Positions 17,933-23,403 of a DNA stretch of 23,403 bases are shown in pieces; positions within the stretch are counted from its first letter, which is position 1; every line of letters starts with the position of its first letter. Under the pieces are notes generated by a model. It saw nothing but the letters and a program-made list of their open reading frames with translations. It did not search any database and was not told where the DNA came from. The stretch comes from a virus. The translations under genes were made by a program, and so were the position numbers. The stretch lies in the IMG/VR virus record IMGVR_UViG_3300009011_000054, positions 1-23,403 of that record. The stretch is one strand, 5' to 3'.

Positions 17933-18084
17933 GATTTTATTCTCCTGGCCGCCAGCAACGCCCACAGCAGAAGGCCGCTACCGCCAGCCATGAGGGCAAC
18001 CGCCGCGCCGAATTTGAGGTAAACGCCTCCCACCAGCGCGCCGAAGCCTGCCAGCCCGGCCACATCGATAATTAGTGATTTCAC
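17926..18084 (-). CDS. Small membrane protein between terminase and portal
   Basis: The 52-aa product starts at a GTG that overlaps the TerL stop (GTGA) and ends 7 nt into the portal gene. It is almost entirely hydrophobic: two segments, about residues 4-30 (IIDVAGLAGFGALVGGVYL) and 31-46 (LMAGGSGLLLWALLAA), followed by a basic ARRIKSC tail. I recall a small protein of unknown function at this position in SfV/HK97-type heads. Coupled at both ends, so it is very probably translated. Function not known. Confidence 0.7.
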   Translation of the reverse strand: MKSLIIDVAGLAGFGALVGGVYLKFGAAVALMAGGSGLLLWALLAARRIKSC

Positions 18085-19811
18085 AGGAATAACAGGTCCT
18101 CATCAGGTTCGAGGTTAGAAAGGAAGTCTTTCGGCTCATTCAGCATTGCGCGCCCAACCCCCATCATCAGGCTGACAGCTCCATCAATTTTGTTACCTGC
18201 GCCCTCTTTAACCGGGCGAACGACATCGTCACTGCCGGGTAAATACTTGCCGACCACGTTCGATATACACCAGGTTAATAGCGGATTACCGTCATGATGG
18301 AATCTGCCCGAAGCGATCGCGGCCTCAATCTCACGCATAGGGTCGCTCATGTTGGTGTAATTCTGGGTAATGGTTACGGGCTCCAGCCCTTCATCCTGCA
18401 ACATATGCGAAAGGCCTGTAGCACCGTAGGGGTCAATCGGACTCGCCGCTATCTTTACGGTTTCACGTAATTTCAGTATCGCTTCCAAAATAAGACGGTA
18501 ATCTACTTCAGCCCCATCCGACGGAACCAGCACCCCCTGATTAACAAAGGACTGGTAACGGTCGGCGATCGTTTTAAGTGCCGGGTCCGTGGCGTAGACG
18601 GTGTCCTCCGGTACCCAGAACTGCGGCGATACGCAGTAATAATGACTTACCCCGTCGATTTCACGGCGGAAAACTGGTACCACCGCGTTCAGGTCGAGTT
18701 TTGAGGCCAGATCTATTCCGAGATAACACTCTTCCCCCGCAAAATCGGACAGTTTGAGCGTCTTATCCGCCGCCGCCATCCACTTCTGCAGGTTGTAGAA
18801 CGCCGTTTTAGAACTCACCCATTTGTTAAAATGTTTGGTGAGTATTTTGTTTGTCTGGCTTGGCGTGGACATCGCCAGCAGTTGCTTGGCCTTGAGAAAA
18901 CCTTCTCTTACCGAAACGTTGTAATTCGGGTTGGCTTTGATTAGCGCTTCCGGATTCGTCCAGTCGTCGTCCTCATCCAGGGTGTAGATGATCCCGAAAA
19001 TCGCTTCGTTCTCGCCACCTTCCCTGATGCGCTCCAGTATCTCGACCACCTGGGCGCGCTTCTCATAGCAGGGTGACGCAATATCAAAGCCCGCTGTCGT
19101 GATGATTAGCGTGATGGGCTGTTCCCTTGCCCCCATCCCCGTAGTCATAGTGGTATACAGCGCGTCAGTATCGTGCTCGTGATACTCGTCTATGATGGCG
19201 CAGGAAGGAGAATCACCGTCGCCGGGATCGCCGATAACTGGTGCAAACAAGGAGCCATCCGGACGCGTCATCTTCTTCGCCCAGGGCTTGATGCTGAACT
19301 TTTGGCGAAGGGAAGGAAGTTTTTTCACCATAGCCAGCGCGGGCGCAAAAACTTTCCACGCCTGTTTTTCCGTCGTGGCACCACAGTAAACTTCCGCTGA
19401 ATACTCCCCATCGGCACAAAACATGTAATTACCGACGGCCGCCGCGATCGCTGACTTCCCGTTTTTGCGTGGCACCTCGATATAAATCTCGGTAAAACGA
19501 CGAAAACCGGTATCCTTGCGCACCCAGCCAAACGGAACACCCAGCGAAAACTTTTGCCAGGGCTCAAACTCGATGCGTAGTTTCCGCCGCGCCCACTCAC
19601 CGGAGGTATGCGGCATTTTCTGTGAGAAACGGAGAAAGCGTTCAGCTTTATTTTTATCGAAGCGGTAAGGCCAGTGTGGATCTTTGGCGCGTTCCAGGTC
19701 GTCCAGATGTCGCTGACAGGCAAGAATGGTTAACCGGCAGGCCAGTATCTTCCCGTTCACGACGTCCCGCGCATACTGGTTCGCCGCATTGACGTTCGGA
19801 TATGTAGCCAT
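18081..19811 (-). CDS. terL: Terminase large subunit, HK97/Terminase_1 type
   Basis: The 576-aa packaging motor has an N-terminal ATPase and a C-terminal nuclease. Walker A is VPRKNGKS at about 113-120, Walker B with catalytic Glu is CAIIDEYHEH at about 204-213, coupling-motif candidate ITTAG near 238-242. The RNase-H-like nuclease begins at YLGIDLASKLDLNAVV (D368), with later acidic candidates in the C-terminal half. It cuts at cos and pumps DNA into the prohead through the portal. The start overlaps the TerS stop as TGATG. Intact, although its portal partner is broken. Confidence 0.95.
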   Translation of the reverse strand: MATYPNVNAANQYARDVVNGKILACRLTILACQRHLDDLERAKDPHWPYRFDKNKAERFLRFSQKMPHTSGEWARRKLRIEFEPWQKFSLGVPFGWVRKDTGFRRFTEIYIEVPRKNGKSAIAAAVGNYMFCADGEYSAEVYCGATTEKQAWKVFAPALAMVKKLPSLRQKFSIKPWAKKMTRPDGSLFAPVIGDPGDGDSPSCAIIDEYHEHDTDALYTTMTTGMGAREQPITLIITTAGFDIASPCYEKRAQVVEILERIREGGENEAIFGIIYTLDEDDDWTNPEALIKANPNYNVSVREGFLKAKQLLAMSTPSQTNKILTKHFNKWVSSKTAFYNLQKWMAAADKTLKLSDFAGEECYLGIDLASKLDLNAVVPVFRREIDGVSHYYCVSPQFWVPEDTVYATDPALKTIADRYQSFVNQGVLVPSDGAEVDYRLILEAILKLRETVKIAASPIDPYGATGLSHMLQDEGLEPVTITQNYTNMSDPMREIEAAIASGRFHHDGNPLLTWCISNVVGKYLPGSDDVVRPVKEGAGNKIDGAVSLMMGVGRAMLNEPKDFLSNLEPDEDLLFL

Positions 19812-20248
19812 CAGTCAAACTCATCAAATTCATTCCCTTCATCGTCCGGATCATTTTTACCGCTGGTCATTCTTATGCGGCTAAGCGGGTCTAACCCGAG
19901 AAGTGAACCCAGACGGGCGAGCTGCGAAACGGAGACATTACGGACATTGATCGCAGGATGTTTTTTCTCTCCCCCCATTTCACTTGATACGGTCAGACCG
20001 TCTTTTGCGATGACTTTTTCCGCCTCGATCATCAGATGAAATGCATTGCAGTACGCCAGGAGTAACGGCGCATCCTCCAGATCAAATACGCCACGTTCGA
20101 TTAAAATTTTGCTCTGCGTTTTCCAGATACGGATCGCAATGTCGCTCAATAATTCATCCGGGGGCGTAATCCTTGTCAGTTTACTTTTCAGGCCTGAGGG
20201 TAAATTACGTTTGCGGCCACCACCGGAAGAACGCACAGCACTACCCAT
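19811..20248 (-). CDS. terS: Terminase small subunit, P27 family
   Basis: The product is 145 aa from the ATG at 20248; GGAGG lies just upstream, and the in-frame TTG at 20260 is less likely. It fits the P27-type small terminase: a Gly/Ser/Arg/Lys-rich start (GGGRKRNLPSGLKSK), helices including ERGVFDLEDAPLLLAYCNAF, then the family segment KKHPAINVRNVSVSQLARLGS (positions about 99-119), and an acidic tail. It recognises cos DNA and loads TerL. The acidic C-terminus probably contacts TerL. Intact. Confidence 0.9.
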   Translation of the reverse strand: MGSAVRSSGGGRKRNLPSGLKSKLTRITPPDELLSDIAIRIWKTQSKILIERGVFDLEDAPLLLAYCNAFHLMIEAEKVIAKDGLTVSSEMGGEKKHPAINVRNVSVSQLARLGSLLGLDPLSRIRMTSGKNDPDDEGNEFDEFD

Positions 20249-20356
20249 TAAAACCTCCAATTCAATAGGCGAAACCTTCCGGAAAAAAGTTTCTTAATTT
20301 GGCCGCGTAAAAATGAAACGGGGCGGGCAGTCCGGAGGGGTAAAGGCTGGAGAGAT
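20249..20356 (-). other. Probable cos / packaging initiation region
   Basis: This 108-nt stretch between the HNH gene and TerS has no gene. In HK97 cos lies in this position. It contains a GC-rich block (CTGCCCGCCCC, about 20320-20330), two CCGGA pentamers, and a bulged inverted repeat with GGGTAAA (20338-20344) and TTTACCC (20356-20362). The exact nick positions cannot be read from sequence. Confidence 0.5.
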
Positions 20357-20757: not shown

Positions 20758-21297
20758 CTACAGAGAAAGTGCAGTCTCAAGGGACTGTCGGGGGAAGCAG
20801 GTAAGCCGCGTGGAGCGGGAACAGTTAACTATTTCAACGCCACCAGCAATATCAAGGAGGCGGGAGAATTCATCCTGCCAGCGCGCAACGCTGAATTTGT
20901 CGGGGTTGGACAGCAGAGCGTGGTTGCCGTGCCAGTGGATGCCGTTACGTATTGAGCAGTCATAGCCCAGCAACAGAACGCGGCTGGCGCCAAGGTGGAT
21001 CGCCAACTCAATCGCTCGCTGACCTGAATTAAACGAACCTGGAATTGCAGACGGTAGCCAGTTAATCCCGAATCGCCTGGCTGTGAACTCATCGCCACAC
21101 AACCGGACCGCCTCCGATGTTATCCCTGCCCCGTATTCTTCCCACCAGCAGCAGTCCGCGGCATAGATAGATGAAGAAAATGGAACAACTTCCCAGGAAT
21201 TATTCACAGCGATAGTGGCTATTCCTGCTTTATGAAGAAGTTTACAATCTACCGCAGTAAGCGAAGGGCCGCTTGCCACACAGGCAAAAGTATTCAT
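20758..21297 (-). CDS. DUF115-like phage protein of unknown function
   Basis: The 179-aa product begins MNTFACVASGPSLTAVDC and has AGIATIAVNNSWEVVPFSS (about 24-42), YAADCCWWEEYG, then SGQRAIELAIHLGASRVLLL (about 90-109) and GYDCS. The Rossmann-like start with a GPS turn and the 'VNNxW' strand resemble DUF115/MAF-type proteins, some of which are thought to handle nucleotide-sugar or sialic-acid-like substrates. I would not go beyond that. AGGAG lies 7 nt before the ATG. It is separated from the genes upstream by a strong terminator and has no obvious promoter of its own, so expression probably relies on late read-through. Looks complete. Confidence 0.65.
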   Translation of the reverse strand: MNTFACVASGPSLTAVDCKLLHKAGIATIAVNNSWEVVPFSSSIYAADCCWWEEYGAGITSEAVRLCGDEFTARRFGINWLPSAIPGSFNSGQRAIELAIHLGASRVLLLGYDCSIRNGIHWHGNHALLSNPDKFSVARWQDEFSRLLDIAGGVEIVNCSRSTRLTCFPRQSLETALSL

Positions 21298-21316: not shown

Positions 21317-21344
21317 AAAAAAAAGGCCGCCGAAGCGACCTTTT
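21317..21344 (-). terminator. Strong intrinsic terminator with UUCG tetraloop
   Basis: On the minus strand AAAAGGTCGC, TTCG loop, GCGGCCTTTT and a further run of T (8 T at 21317-21324) form a 10-bp stem with one G-U pair. It lies 8 nt after the stop of the 105-aa gene and should end transcripts from that gene's own promoter. Confidence 0.88.
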
Positions 21345-21352
21345 AAAACTGT

Positions 21353-21670
21353 TTAAGGCTGTTTAAGCCTTACTGATTTCAGTTCAAGCAATTCCCAATC
21401 CTCGCCGGTCTGGAGTTTCACCTCCTCCAGTTTAACCTTATAGGTATGATCTTTTGTGTCGCTAACAAGTACAAGATCCACGTTATCTTGTGCCATTTTC
21501 ATCAGCTCCGCGACATCATTACGGTTAAATTGCTGTCCTTCCTTTGAAAATCTGATGCTTATTCTTCCATCAGACATAGGAGCTGTGTATTCGAAAATAG
21601 AAAGCTTACCAAGATTTACTTCCTGCCCTTGTCCATAACGAACCCGAACAACTGTATTTTGTTCAATCAT
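21353..21670 (-). CDS. Unknown 105-aa protein, moron-like gene
   Basis: I do not recognise the family. The product starts MIEQNTVVRVRYGQGQEVNL behind a near-perfect AGGAGGG site. It looks like a small soluble alpha/beta protein: beta-rich N-terminal half (ISIRFSKEGQQF, about 37-48), one amphipathic helix (NDVAELMKMAQDNVDLV, about 51-67) and a charged beta-rich end (YKVKLEEVKLQ, LLELKSVRLK). No signal peptide or membrane segment. It has a plausible promoter upstream and a strong terminator downstream, the classic layout of a moron expressed in the lysogen, and lies between lysis and packaging genes, a known hot spot for accessory genes. Confidence 0.8.
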   Translation of the reverse strand: MIEQNTVVRVRYGQGQEVNLGKLSIFEYTAPMSDGRISIRFSKEGQQFNRNDVAELMKMAQDNVDLVLVSDTKDHTYKVKLEEVKLQTGEDWELLELKSVRLKQP

Positions 21671-21773: not shown

Positions 21774-22031
21774 CTAACAGTCAGCATCAGGACGAGCAAC
21801 GGCTCGACATGCGGCCATGCATGCGCGTTTCATGTCGAACTCAGCCTGTCTTATCCACTCTTGGGCTTCCCAACTGTCGATTCCTAGAGGGATGTCGCCC
21901 ATTTGTTCGCGAAGCAATTTGATGAACTGGCGGCTGATGTCCTTGAACTGGTTCATCTTGCCGATTTCACCGTAAGAGAGTTCGCGATAGCCCTTAACGG
22001 TGCTTCCGTCCTGTGGTTTAGCTTCACTCAT
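21774..22031 (-). CDS. Acb2/Tad1-hairpin-like protein, candidate anti-CBASS sponge
   Basis: The product is 85 aa from the ATG at 22031 (overlaps the Rz1-like stop as ATGA). The N-terminal GYRELSYGEIGKMNQFK (14-30) matches the pattern Y-R-x-L-x-x-x-E-I-x-x-M-N-x-x-K of Acb2-type proteins, and the C-terminal helix FDMKRACMAACRAVARPDA is the usual end in enterobacterial phage copies. As I recall, Acb2 of Pseudomonas phage PaMx33 uses Tyr11 and Lys26 to bind cyclic oligonucleotides; Tyr15 and Lys30 here have the same 15-residue spacing. Acb2 is a hexameric sponge for CBASS signals. The middle (REQMGDIPLGIDSW) is divergent and longer than in short members. Family call moderate; activity not shown. 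Confidence 0.65.
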   Translation of the reverse strand: MSEAKPQDGSTVKGYRELSYGEIGKMNQFKDISRQFIKLLREQMGDIPLGIDSWEAQEWIRQAEFDMKRACMAACRAVARPDADC

Positions 22032-22258
22032 GGAATTCTCTTCTCGTTTGGTTTCTGGCAGTTCGCCTGCCACGCTTTGTTATGCGCCAGGATGTCTTTC
22101 TTCGTCTGGCGGTCCAGAACGTCGATGTCGTGATCAGTCAGGTAGATCGGCTTTACCCAGTCACAGGCGGTATCAACCACCACCGGGACGCTTCCACGTG
22201 TCACGCAGCTCGCGATCAACATCGTCATCAGGCATGCGGTTAACAGTCTGCTGTACAT
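22028..22258 (-). CDS. Rz1-like outer-membrane spanin lipoprotein
   Basis: The 76-aa product has an N-terminal signal with lipobox LIAS-C (cleavage before C18), two further Cys, and a short helical C-terminal part (DILAHNKAWQANCQK). It starts inside the Rz-like gene in another frame (86-nt overlap), the usual Rz/Rz1 arrangement. The mature lipoprotein would sit in the outer membrane and pair with the Rz-like protein to disrupt the outer membrane in the last lysis step. Its VVVDTACDWVKPIYLTD region is common in enterobacterial phages that use this spanin type. Confidence 0.78.
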   Translation of the reverse strand: MYSRLLTACLMTMLIASCVTRGSVPVVVDTACDWVKPIYLTDHDIDVLDRQTKKDILAHNKAWQANCQKPNEKRIP

Positions 22259-22448
22259 TGCTGGCCTCTTTGGTTACTTCTACCCGGCGTTCGGCTACTG
22301 CTTCAGTGGCTGCTGCCTTTTCTTCGGTGCGCTGCTGGTCTGCCTTGGCTTCAGCTTTGCTGGTGCCGCGTGAATGACCAATACCAAAGGCACCGGCGAT
22401 AGCAGCCATTATCAGGGCAGCAATACCGACGATTGTTTCTAGTCCCAT
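22173..22448 (-). CDS. Rz-like inner-membrane spanin
   Basis: The product is 91 aa from the ATG at 22448 (GAGG upstream); the longer open frame would run into the endolysin gene. One N-terminal membrane helix (ETIVGIAALIMAAIAGAFGIG, about 4-24, type II) is followed by a charged, Ala/Glu/Lys-rich coiled coil (about 30-72) and a short tail ending in Pro-Gly-Gly-Gly. This is the i-spanin layout: membrane anchor plus periplasmic helix that reaches the lipoprotein partner. It lies between endolysin and the Rz1-like gene, which supports the call. Confidence 0.78.
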   Translation of the reverse strand: MGLETIVGIAALIMAAIAGAFGIGHSRGTSKAEAKADQQRTEEKAAATEAVAERRVEVTKEASNVQQTVNRMPDDDVDRELRDTWKRPGGG

Positions 22449-22455
22449 ATCAACC

Positions 22456-23082
22456 TCACACCAGTACCGTTTTGGCCTGACCGAAGCGAGCGCGACGATC
22501 TTCAAGTCCGTTCGTGCCACCGTTGATAACCTTCGTCACCTGCACCAGGTCGCCGGAATACTTCAGACATCCCTTAGTAGCAAAGAACCACGCCGCGCTT
22601 CTGGCTGCATAAACATCTTCGCCCAATAGTTCAGGCTGCTTAACCAAATCAACCTTCAAGCCGTTCCCACAATCACGGTAGTTATTGAGGCCGGTAATCT
22701 GGATAAGTCCACGTCCACGGTATAACCAGCCGTCGCCGGGAGCGTTGTTCCCCATTCGCTTGCTGTATACCAGGTTAGCGATAGCTCGCTGGCGCTCAAT
22801 CGGTAATGTTCGCTCTTCAGGACGACGTCCAAGCGCGTTAGCTTGGTCAGCAGTGAGGCGTCCCGCACGGATGAAGTTAACCAGTCCAGCAATGCGATAG
22901 TTGAAGCTCTCCACCAGCAGAGTAAAACCAGCTGATTCGTGCCCTGCCTGAGCAATAAACATCGCCTGGTCTACCGGATTGGTGATACCGAACTCTTTCA
23001 TCGCATCATTGATTGGCTGAAACCAGCGCGCACCTAACTCGGCGCTTAACCCAGCCGCCTTTTGAAATTGTGATTGGTTCAT
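22456..23082 (-). CDS. Endolysin, GH19 (chitinase-like) muramidase
   Basis: The 208-aa product fits the glycoside hydrolase 19 lysozymes common in enterobacterial phages. The catalytic Glu is E49 in [11 protein letters not shown], and the fold is recognisable in [28 protein letters not shown] (about 118-135) and the Trp-Phe segment [11 protein letters not shown]. It has no signal peptide or SAR helix, so it needs the holin to reach the peptidoglycan. The start overlaps the holin stop (TAATG). Intact. Confidence 0.93.
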
Positions 23083-23363
23083 TAGTGCCTCAGTGCATCA
23101 ATAAGGCGCGCCACGTTTCCCCGAGCCCAGAGAACAGCAGCACATATCAGGACGTTCACCAGCACCACAAACCAGTGCGATTCATGGTACAGGCCGAACA
23201 GGTAACGGAAAGGGACGCTGGCGTATACCAGCACCGTGAAATAAGCCATCAGCGATATCAGTGGGCGATGTCTCGCCCCACCGCGCTGGTAGAACATCAG
23301 TGCAATAACGATAACAGCAGAGATAATTGCGTTTGCCATCGCACTCGGATCACTTGTTACCAT
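23082..23363 (-). CDS. Holin, three membrane helices (phage holin family 3-like)
   Basis: The product is 93 aa from the ATG at 23363, selected for GGAGGGG just upstream and because the longer frame has no ribosome site. Three hydrophobic segments (about 10-23, 38-55, 63-79) fit a class I holin topology, with the family's [20 protein letters not shown] (about 32-51) and a basic C-terminus ([15 protein letters not shown]). It forms the membrane hole that times lysis and releases the endolysin. Directly coupled to the endolysin gene. Confidence 0.88.
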
Positions 23364-23403
23364 TGCTGGCCCCTCCACCACGTAAACGCGAGAGAATTCC
23401 AAA
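23350..23403 (-). CDS. Probable 3' end of an upstream lysis-region gene (partial)
   Basis: The frame ending in TGA at 23350-23352 reads [12 protein letters not shown] as its last residues and overlaps the holin start by 14 nt, as other genes here do. The start is outside the window. A small antiholin or first holin would be usual in this position; too little is visible to say. Confidence 0.4.
   Translation of the reverse strand, partial: FGILSRLRGGGASNGNK

Follow-up and report, generated by a model that had tools for sequence, protein, structure and literature searches.

An Acb2-family protein gene directly behind the spanin genes of an SfV/ST64B-like prophage: a putative late cyclic-dinucleotide sponge

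In a 23,403-nucleotide stretch of viral DNA (the window), the gene at positions 21774–22031 of the minus strand is, with high confidence from its sequence and predicted fold, a genuine member of the Acb2 family, whose proteins sequester the signal molecules of the bacterial CBASS defence. What is new is a further member of an already known family, for which we infer ligand binding, hexamer formation and anti-CBASS activity. We hold it very probable that the gene is the acb2 of an SfV/ST64B-like prophage and that its hairpin protein would form a hexameric cyclic-dinucleotide sponge, made late and preventing abortion before lysis. The features of the window used in this analysis are listed below.

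18081–20260, minus strand: terminase small and large subunit genes, downstream of acb2 (PF05119, PF20441, PF03354)
21321–21344, minus strand: terminator-like hairpin plus T run, AAAAGGTCGCTTCGGCGGCCTTTT TTTT (sequence scan)
21774–22031, minus strand: acb2 homolog, 85 amino acids, helical hairpin (Pfam, PHROG and PDB sequence matches, predicted fold)
22028–22258, minus strand: Rz1-like o-spanin with lipobox LIASC and stop codon TGA (phrog_1275, E 3.2e-35)
22173–22520, minus strand: Rz-like i-spanin, overlapping Rz1 in a different frame (phrog_1026, E 8.8e-34)
22456–23082, minus strand: GH19-type endolysin (PF00182, phrog_181)
23082–23402, minus strand: holin (Phage_holin_3_7), at the contig edge (PF05449, phrog_217)

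The acb2 reading frame comprises 85 codons, and its ATG shares the tetranucleotide ATGA with the stop codon of the Rz1-like frame, a 4-nt overlap that suggests translational coupling of the two genes. A purine-rich stretch, GAGAAGAGA, lies just 5′ of acb2 and could be a separate ribosome site. The lysis gene order holin, endolysin, Rz, Rz1, acb2 was borne out by PHROG and Pfam matches; the assignment of Rz1 to phrog_1275 and of Rz to phrog_1026, together with the overlap, confirmed the position behind the spanin genes given in the original prediction. The true start of Rz is probably inside its open reading frame, since the PHROG match starts at residue 25.

Comparison of acb2 with its seven nearest same-length relatives with usable dS resulted in dN/dS values of 0.02–0.06. 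Such purifying selection excludes a chance open reading frame and marks acb2 as a conserved gene. Within the group of 85-residue proteins, dN/dS was lowest for residues 1–42 (0.014) and highest for the inter-helix residues 43–58 (0.19). It is very improbable that the gene is a decayed, non-functional acb2 remnant. Damaged copies are known, for example L093, and two relatives (L007 and L058) have Cys at the position of Tyr15, but the copy in the window is full length, retains all pocket residues and shows this low dN/dS against its near relatives. In L093 (6001–6115), a Raoultella terrigena prophage, the middle of acb2 is deleted and the first ~16 codons are joined directly to the 3′ end.

To assess family membership, the protein was compared with profile and structure databases. 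The Pfam model PF24729 (Acb2_Tad1_hairpin), with a curated cut-off of 27 bits, matched at 43.7 bits (E 3.1e-11) over the full model length 1–58, the outcome of the very search by which the original prediction had proposed to check its Acb2-like candidate. The protein also matched phrog_717 (E 4.7e-21), the group taken for Vs.4 homologs by Jenson and colleagues (PMC10097602). Against the PDB, the single sequence retrieved p26 (Acb2) at E 1.8e-7 and T4 Vs.4 at E 0.0094, and profile A1, built from 43 relatives, retrieved the same two proteins at E 1.7e-14 and 3.6e-9. NCBIfam returned no family for the protein. There were no hits in 14 control genomes, and the match is well above what chance would give. 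One viral collection held 340 relatives, and complete E. coli genomes yielded only three weak DNA matches.

The AlphaFold2 monomer (pLDDT 85) is an antiparallel two-helix hairpin with helices at residues 20–46 and 53–79; the helical hairpin, the absence of which had been named as grounds for dropping the Acb2 assignment, is thus present in the model. In a Foldseek search of the PDB, the first seven matches were all Vs.4 or Acb2, with E-values of about 1e-3. Realignment of these matches with VIA-align gave Z-scores of 10.0, 8.7 and 8.6, to be read with the caveat that helical hairpins are common and that a Z under about 13 may reflect no more than a generic helical bundle. The HK97 small terminase, which also appeared in the Foldseek list, was set aside as a low-scoring, generic helical match. 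The best fold match was T4 Vs.4 (Acb2; PDB 7uq2; Z 10.0, 76 aligned residues, 2.1 Å).

As the Pfam model describes a hairpin found in Acb2 and Tad1 alike, a Tad1-type (Thoeris anti-defence) protein was considered as well. Tad1 and Acb2 have the C-terminal hairpin model and the sponge principle in common, but Tad1 has an additional beta domain and also binds gcADPR; its N-terminal beta-sheet is followed by two long helices (PMC12043709). The solved structures matched by sequence are Acb2 and Vs.4, not Tad1. The window protein, 85 residues long and with no strand in its predicted fold, lacks the N-terminal antiparallel beta-sheet, and we rejected Tad1 as extremely improbable. Acb4, the sponge of SPO1 and N4, also sequesters CBASS nucleotides but is a tetramer of unrelated fold (PMC11722364).

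Next, we compared the residues of the binding pocket. The translation carries the motif YRELSYGEIGKMNQFK, running from Tyr15 to Lys30 (Y15-R-E-L-S-Y-G-E-I-G-K-M-N-Q-F-K30), which agrees exactly, spacing included, with the YRxLxxxEIxxMNxxK pattern claimed earlier. In T4 Vs.4, Y8, K23 and R79 contact cGAMP (PMC10097602). These residues of the cyclic-dinucleotide pocket align with Tyr15, Lys30 and Arg76 of the window protein, which are conserved in 41, 42 and all 43 of the 43 relatives, respectively. In addition, A63, A70 and A74 align with the small residues A66, A73 and A77 of the Vs.4 hexamer interface. The acidic residue at position 61 of Vs.4 is also matched, at position 58 of the window protein. 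In contrast, Vs.4 H11 and the base-stacking F82 are replaced by Leu18 and Ala79, and the genome context differs. As the proven Acb2 of PaMx33 has the same Ala and Leu, F82 and H11 do not define the family. With the curated Pfam cut-off passed, phrog_717 matched, solved Acb2 structures recovered by both sequence and fold, and the dinucleotide contact residues in place, the Acb2-like identity was upheld. In two relatives, L007 (3001–3255) and L058 (3001–3273), Cys occupies the position of the pocket residue Tyr15, which is possibly a loss of binding in the wild of the kind reported in other phages that face Panoptes.

The hairpin fold is also that of the Acb2 proteins of Pseudomonas phages PaMx33, PaMx35 and PaMx41 (p26; PDB 8h2j, 8h2x, 8ixz), to which the window protein is about 30–35% identical over the structural alignment. 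Their Tyr11, Lys26 and Arg85 have equivalents in the window protein, and both have Ala at the T4 F82 position and a C-terminal RAxAxPD motif. The window protein differs in a shorter inter-helix segment and in the replacement of Arg67, Lys73 and Thr74 by Glu58, Glu64 and Phe65. The location of the gene differs too, in the lysis operon in the window versus the end of the replication operon in the Pseudomonas phages. Nearer relatives are HK639 gp72 and URC09942 of Escherichia phage vB_EcoS-733R5, annotated as hypothetical, which belong to the same family at 49–56% identity. Like acb2 of the window, both of these and the E. coli DUF7681 proteins are encoded directly behind Rz1-like spanin genes; the inter-helix loop and the genes between acb2 and terminase differ from those of the window.

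The residue at position 58 may bear on ligand preference. It is Glu in the window protein, Arg67 in PaMx33 Acb2 and Asp61 in T4 Vs.4, and among the 43 relatives it is acidic (Glu or Asp) in 25, including the window protein, and Arg in 17, the more distant ones. The adjoining K73 and T74 of PaMx33 have likewise become Glu64 and Phe65. Arg67 of PaMx33 Acb2 is said to contact cyclic trinucleotides; if so, its replacement by Glu58 would make the window protein prefer dinucleotides over trinucleotides. The original prediction had instead attributed a possible change in ligand preference to the divergent sequence between the helices. That segment is indeed variable, but it is a loop of 8 to 27 residues across relatives that lies away from the pocket residues, and the change at position 58 is more telling.

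These substitutions also speak for a different reading, in which the protein is an Acb2-family sponge whose main ligand is other than classic cGAMP. The Glu58 clade would then bind dinucleotides only, the trinucleotide site being lost, or would bind another signal such as the nucleotides of Panoptes or type III CRISPR. We regard this reading as possible but doubtful. The split at position 58 and the changes at positions 64 and 65 favor it, provided that Arg67 does contact trinucleotides. It is also consistent with the binding of 2′,3′-c-di-AMP by T4 Acb2 (PMC12657218) and with the varying spectrum reported for Acb2 homologs (PMC12043709).

We then examined how acb2 is placed across relatives. 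Among 71 distinct loci with at least 1.5 kb of upstream sequence, all of which derive from one query and are not independent, spanin genes lie upstream on the same strand in 68. In 58 of these the spanin is within about 0.7 kb, and 14 have the same 4-nt overlap. Such close linkage could also be expected of a lysis-timing accessory, for example a spanin or endolysin regulator, that shares the hairpin fold without binding nucleotides. However, the adjoining spanins belong to several unrelated families (phrog_1275/1026, 214/3001, 3198/456 and 5672/2536) while acb2 stays the same, homologs elsewhere adjoin capsid, tail or replication genes, few positions are as well conserved as the pocket residues, and no membrane helix is apparent in sequence or model. 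Because of the unrelated spanin partners, the non-lysis contexts and the conserved pocket, a lysis-timing role was rejected as most unlikely. Comparison of pairs of acb2 genes that are 85–99.5% identical showed flanks less than 62% identical upstream in 134 of 225 pairs and downstream in 206 of 225, against an average of 53% for shuffled DNA. Since acb2 remains similar where the flanking DNA is often unrelated, acb2 keeps its site while its neighbors are exchanged.

The same placement was surveyed in 21 annotated phages chosen for diversity, a sample rather than a census. In about 15 of them the genes around the homolog are those for capsid, tail, terminase or lysis, and its context is unclear in four.

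Beside capsid genes: Pseudomonas phages SS2019XII and Ps60; Vibrio phages D96a and H188; Shewanella phage 1/41; Pectobacterium phage Amona
Among tail genes: Vibrio phage R20L
Near terminase: Vibrio 1.204 and Zuri
After lysis genes: Pseudomonas 5400, MR7, Tola, ZX1, HK639 and EcoS-733R5
At the end of replication or recombination operons, as exceptions: PaMx35 and IME279

Two of the Pseudomonas phage homologs (L104:2983–3270 and L118:2483–2713) carry the label "NAD/FAD-utilizing enzyme apparently involved in cell division", seemingly an erroneous annotation that has been passed on.

Late expression of a counter-defence protein had been considered odd in the original prediction, a view that does not hold given the 68 of 71 relatives behind spanins, the predominance of late contexts in the sample and the timing of CBASS triggers. 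RNA from the terS-terL region activates one CBASS cyclase, and mutations in the capsid allow escape (PMC10686824); the RNA trigger was demonstrated in staphylococcal phages, not in the window phage. Acb2 is reported to be active during induction and not during lysogenic maintenance (PMC12043709). Since the published triggers and escape sites, terminase-derived RNA and capsid, are late products and Acb2 acts at induction, late expression of acb2 is sensible. Judged by title and abstract, none of three papers found on anti-CBASS together with spanins and lysis evidently concerns this linkage.

In the window, an HNH gene and the small and large terminase genes follow 3′ of acb2 on the same strand, and the capsid genes are also downstream on that strand. 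The structural genes resemble those of a group of enterobacterial myophages with SfV and the Salmonella phages F1055 and ST64B among their relatives. The terminator-like hairpin at 21344–21321 lies 0.43 kb downstream of acb2, past the next open reading frame and before the terminase genes. Late transcripts would therefore need antitermination to pass it, and one transcript shared by acb2 and terminase is an assumption. A weak scan of the window for an early promoter found no sigma-70-like site 5′ of acb2 on the minus strand; the late promoter is outside the window.

The interval between acb2 and terminase contains further genes. At 21353–21670 (minus strand), a 105-amino-acid open reading frame with a strong ribosome site precedes the hairpin; it has no match in Pfam, PHROG or NCBIfam and looks like an accessory "moron" gene. 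At 20758–21297 (minus strand), a 179-amino-acid protein matches phrog_4603, labelled alpha-2,3-sialyltransferase (E 2.8e-60). As glycosyltransferases occur in the same interval of related prophages, the junction seems to collect accessory genes.

Taken as the acb2 of an SfV/ST64B-like enterobacterial prophage, the gene would encode a protein predicted to fold as a two-helix hairpin and, by homology, to form a hexamer that sequesters cyclic dinucleotides from host CBASS cyclases, with Tyr15, Lys30 and Arg76 probably holding the ligand at protomer interfaces. As the final gene of the lysis cassette it would be expressed late, its translation overlapping Rz1. Its production would therefore come from the strand and region that also encode terminase and capsid, whose products or RNAs are reported CBASS triggers or escape sites. 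The sponge would thereby keep the cell from aborting ahead of lysis. A wider reading is possible but less likely than not: acb2 may be kept preferentially in late operons because CBASS triggers are late products, in enterobacterial prophages it may have become fixed at the lysis-packaging junction as a mobile cassette, and the clade of the window may be dinucleotide-specialised with the trinucleotide site lost.

With the E58/R58 split, di- versus trinucleotide specificity becomes open to simple mutational analysis. The puzzle of late placement becomes a testable idea, that of a sponge timed to its trigger. Finally, a large lysis-linked branch, still annotated as "hypothetical" or "DUF7681", is added to this counter-defence family.
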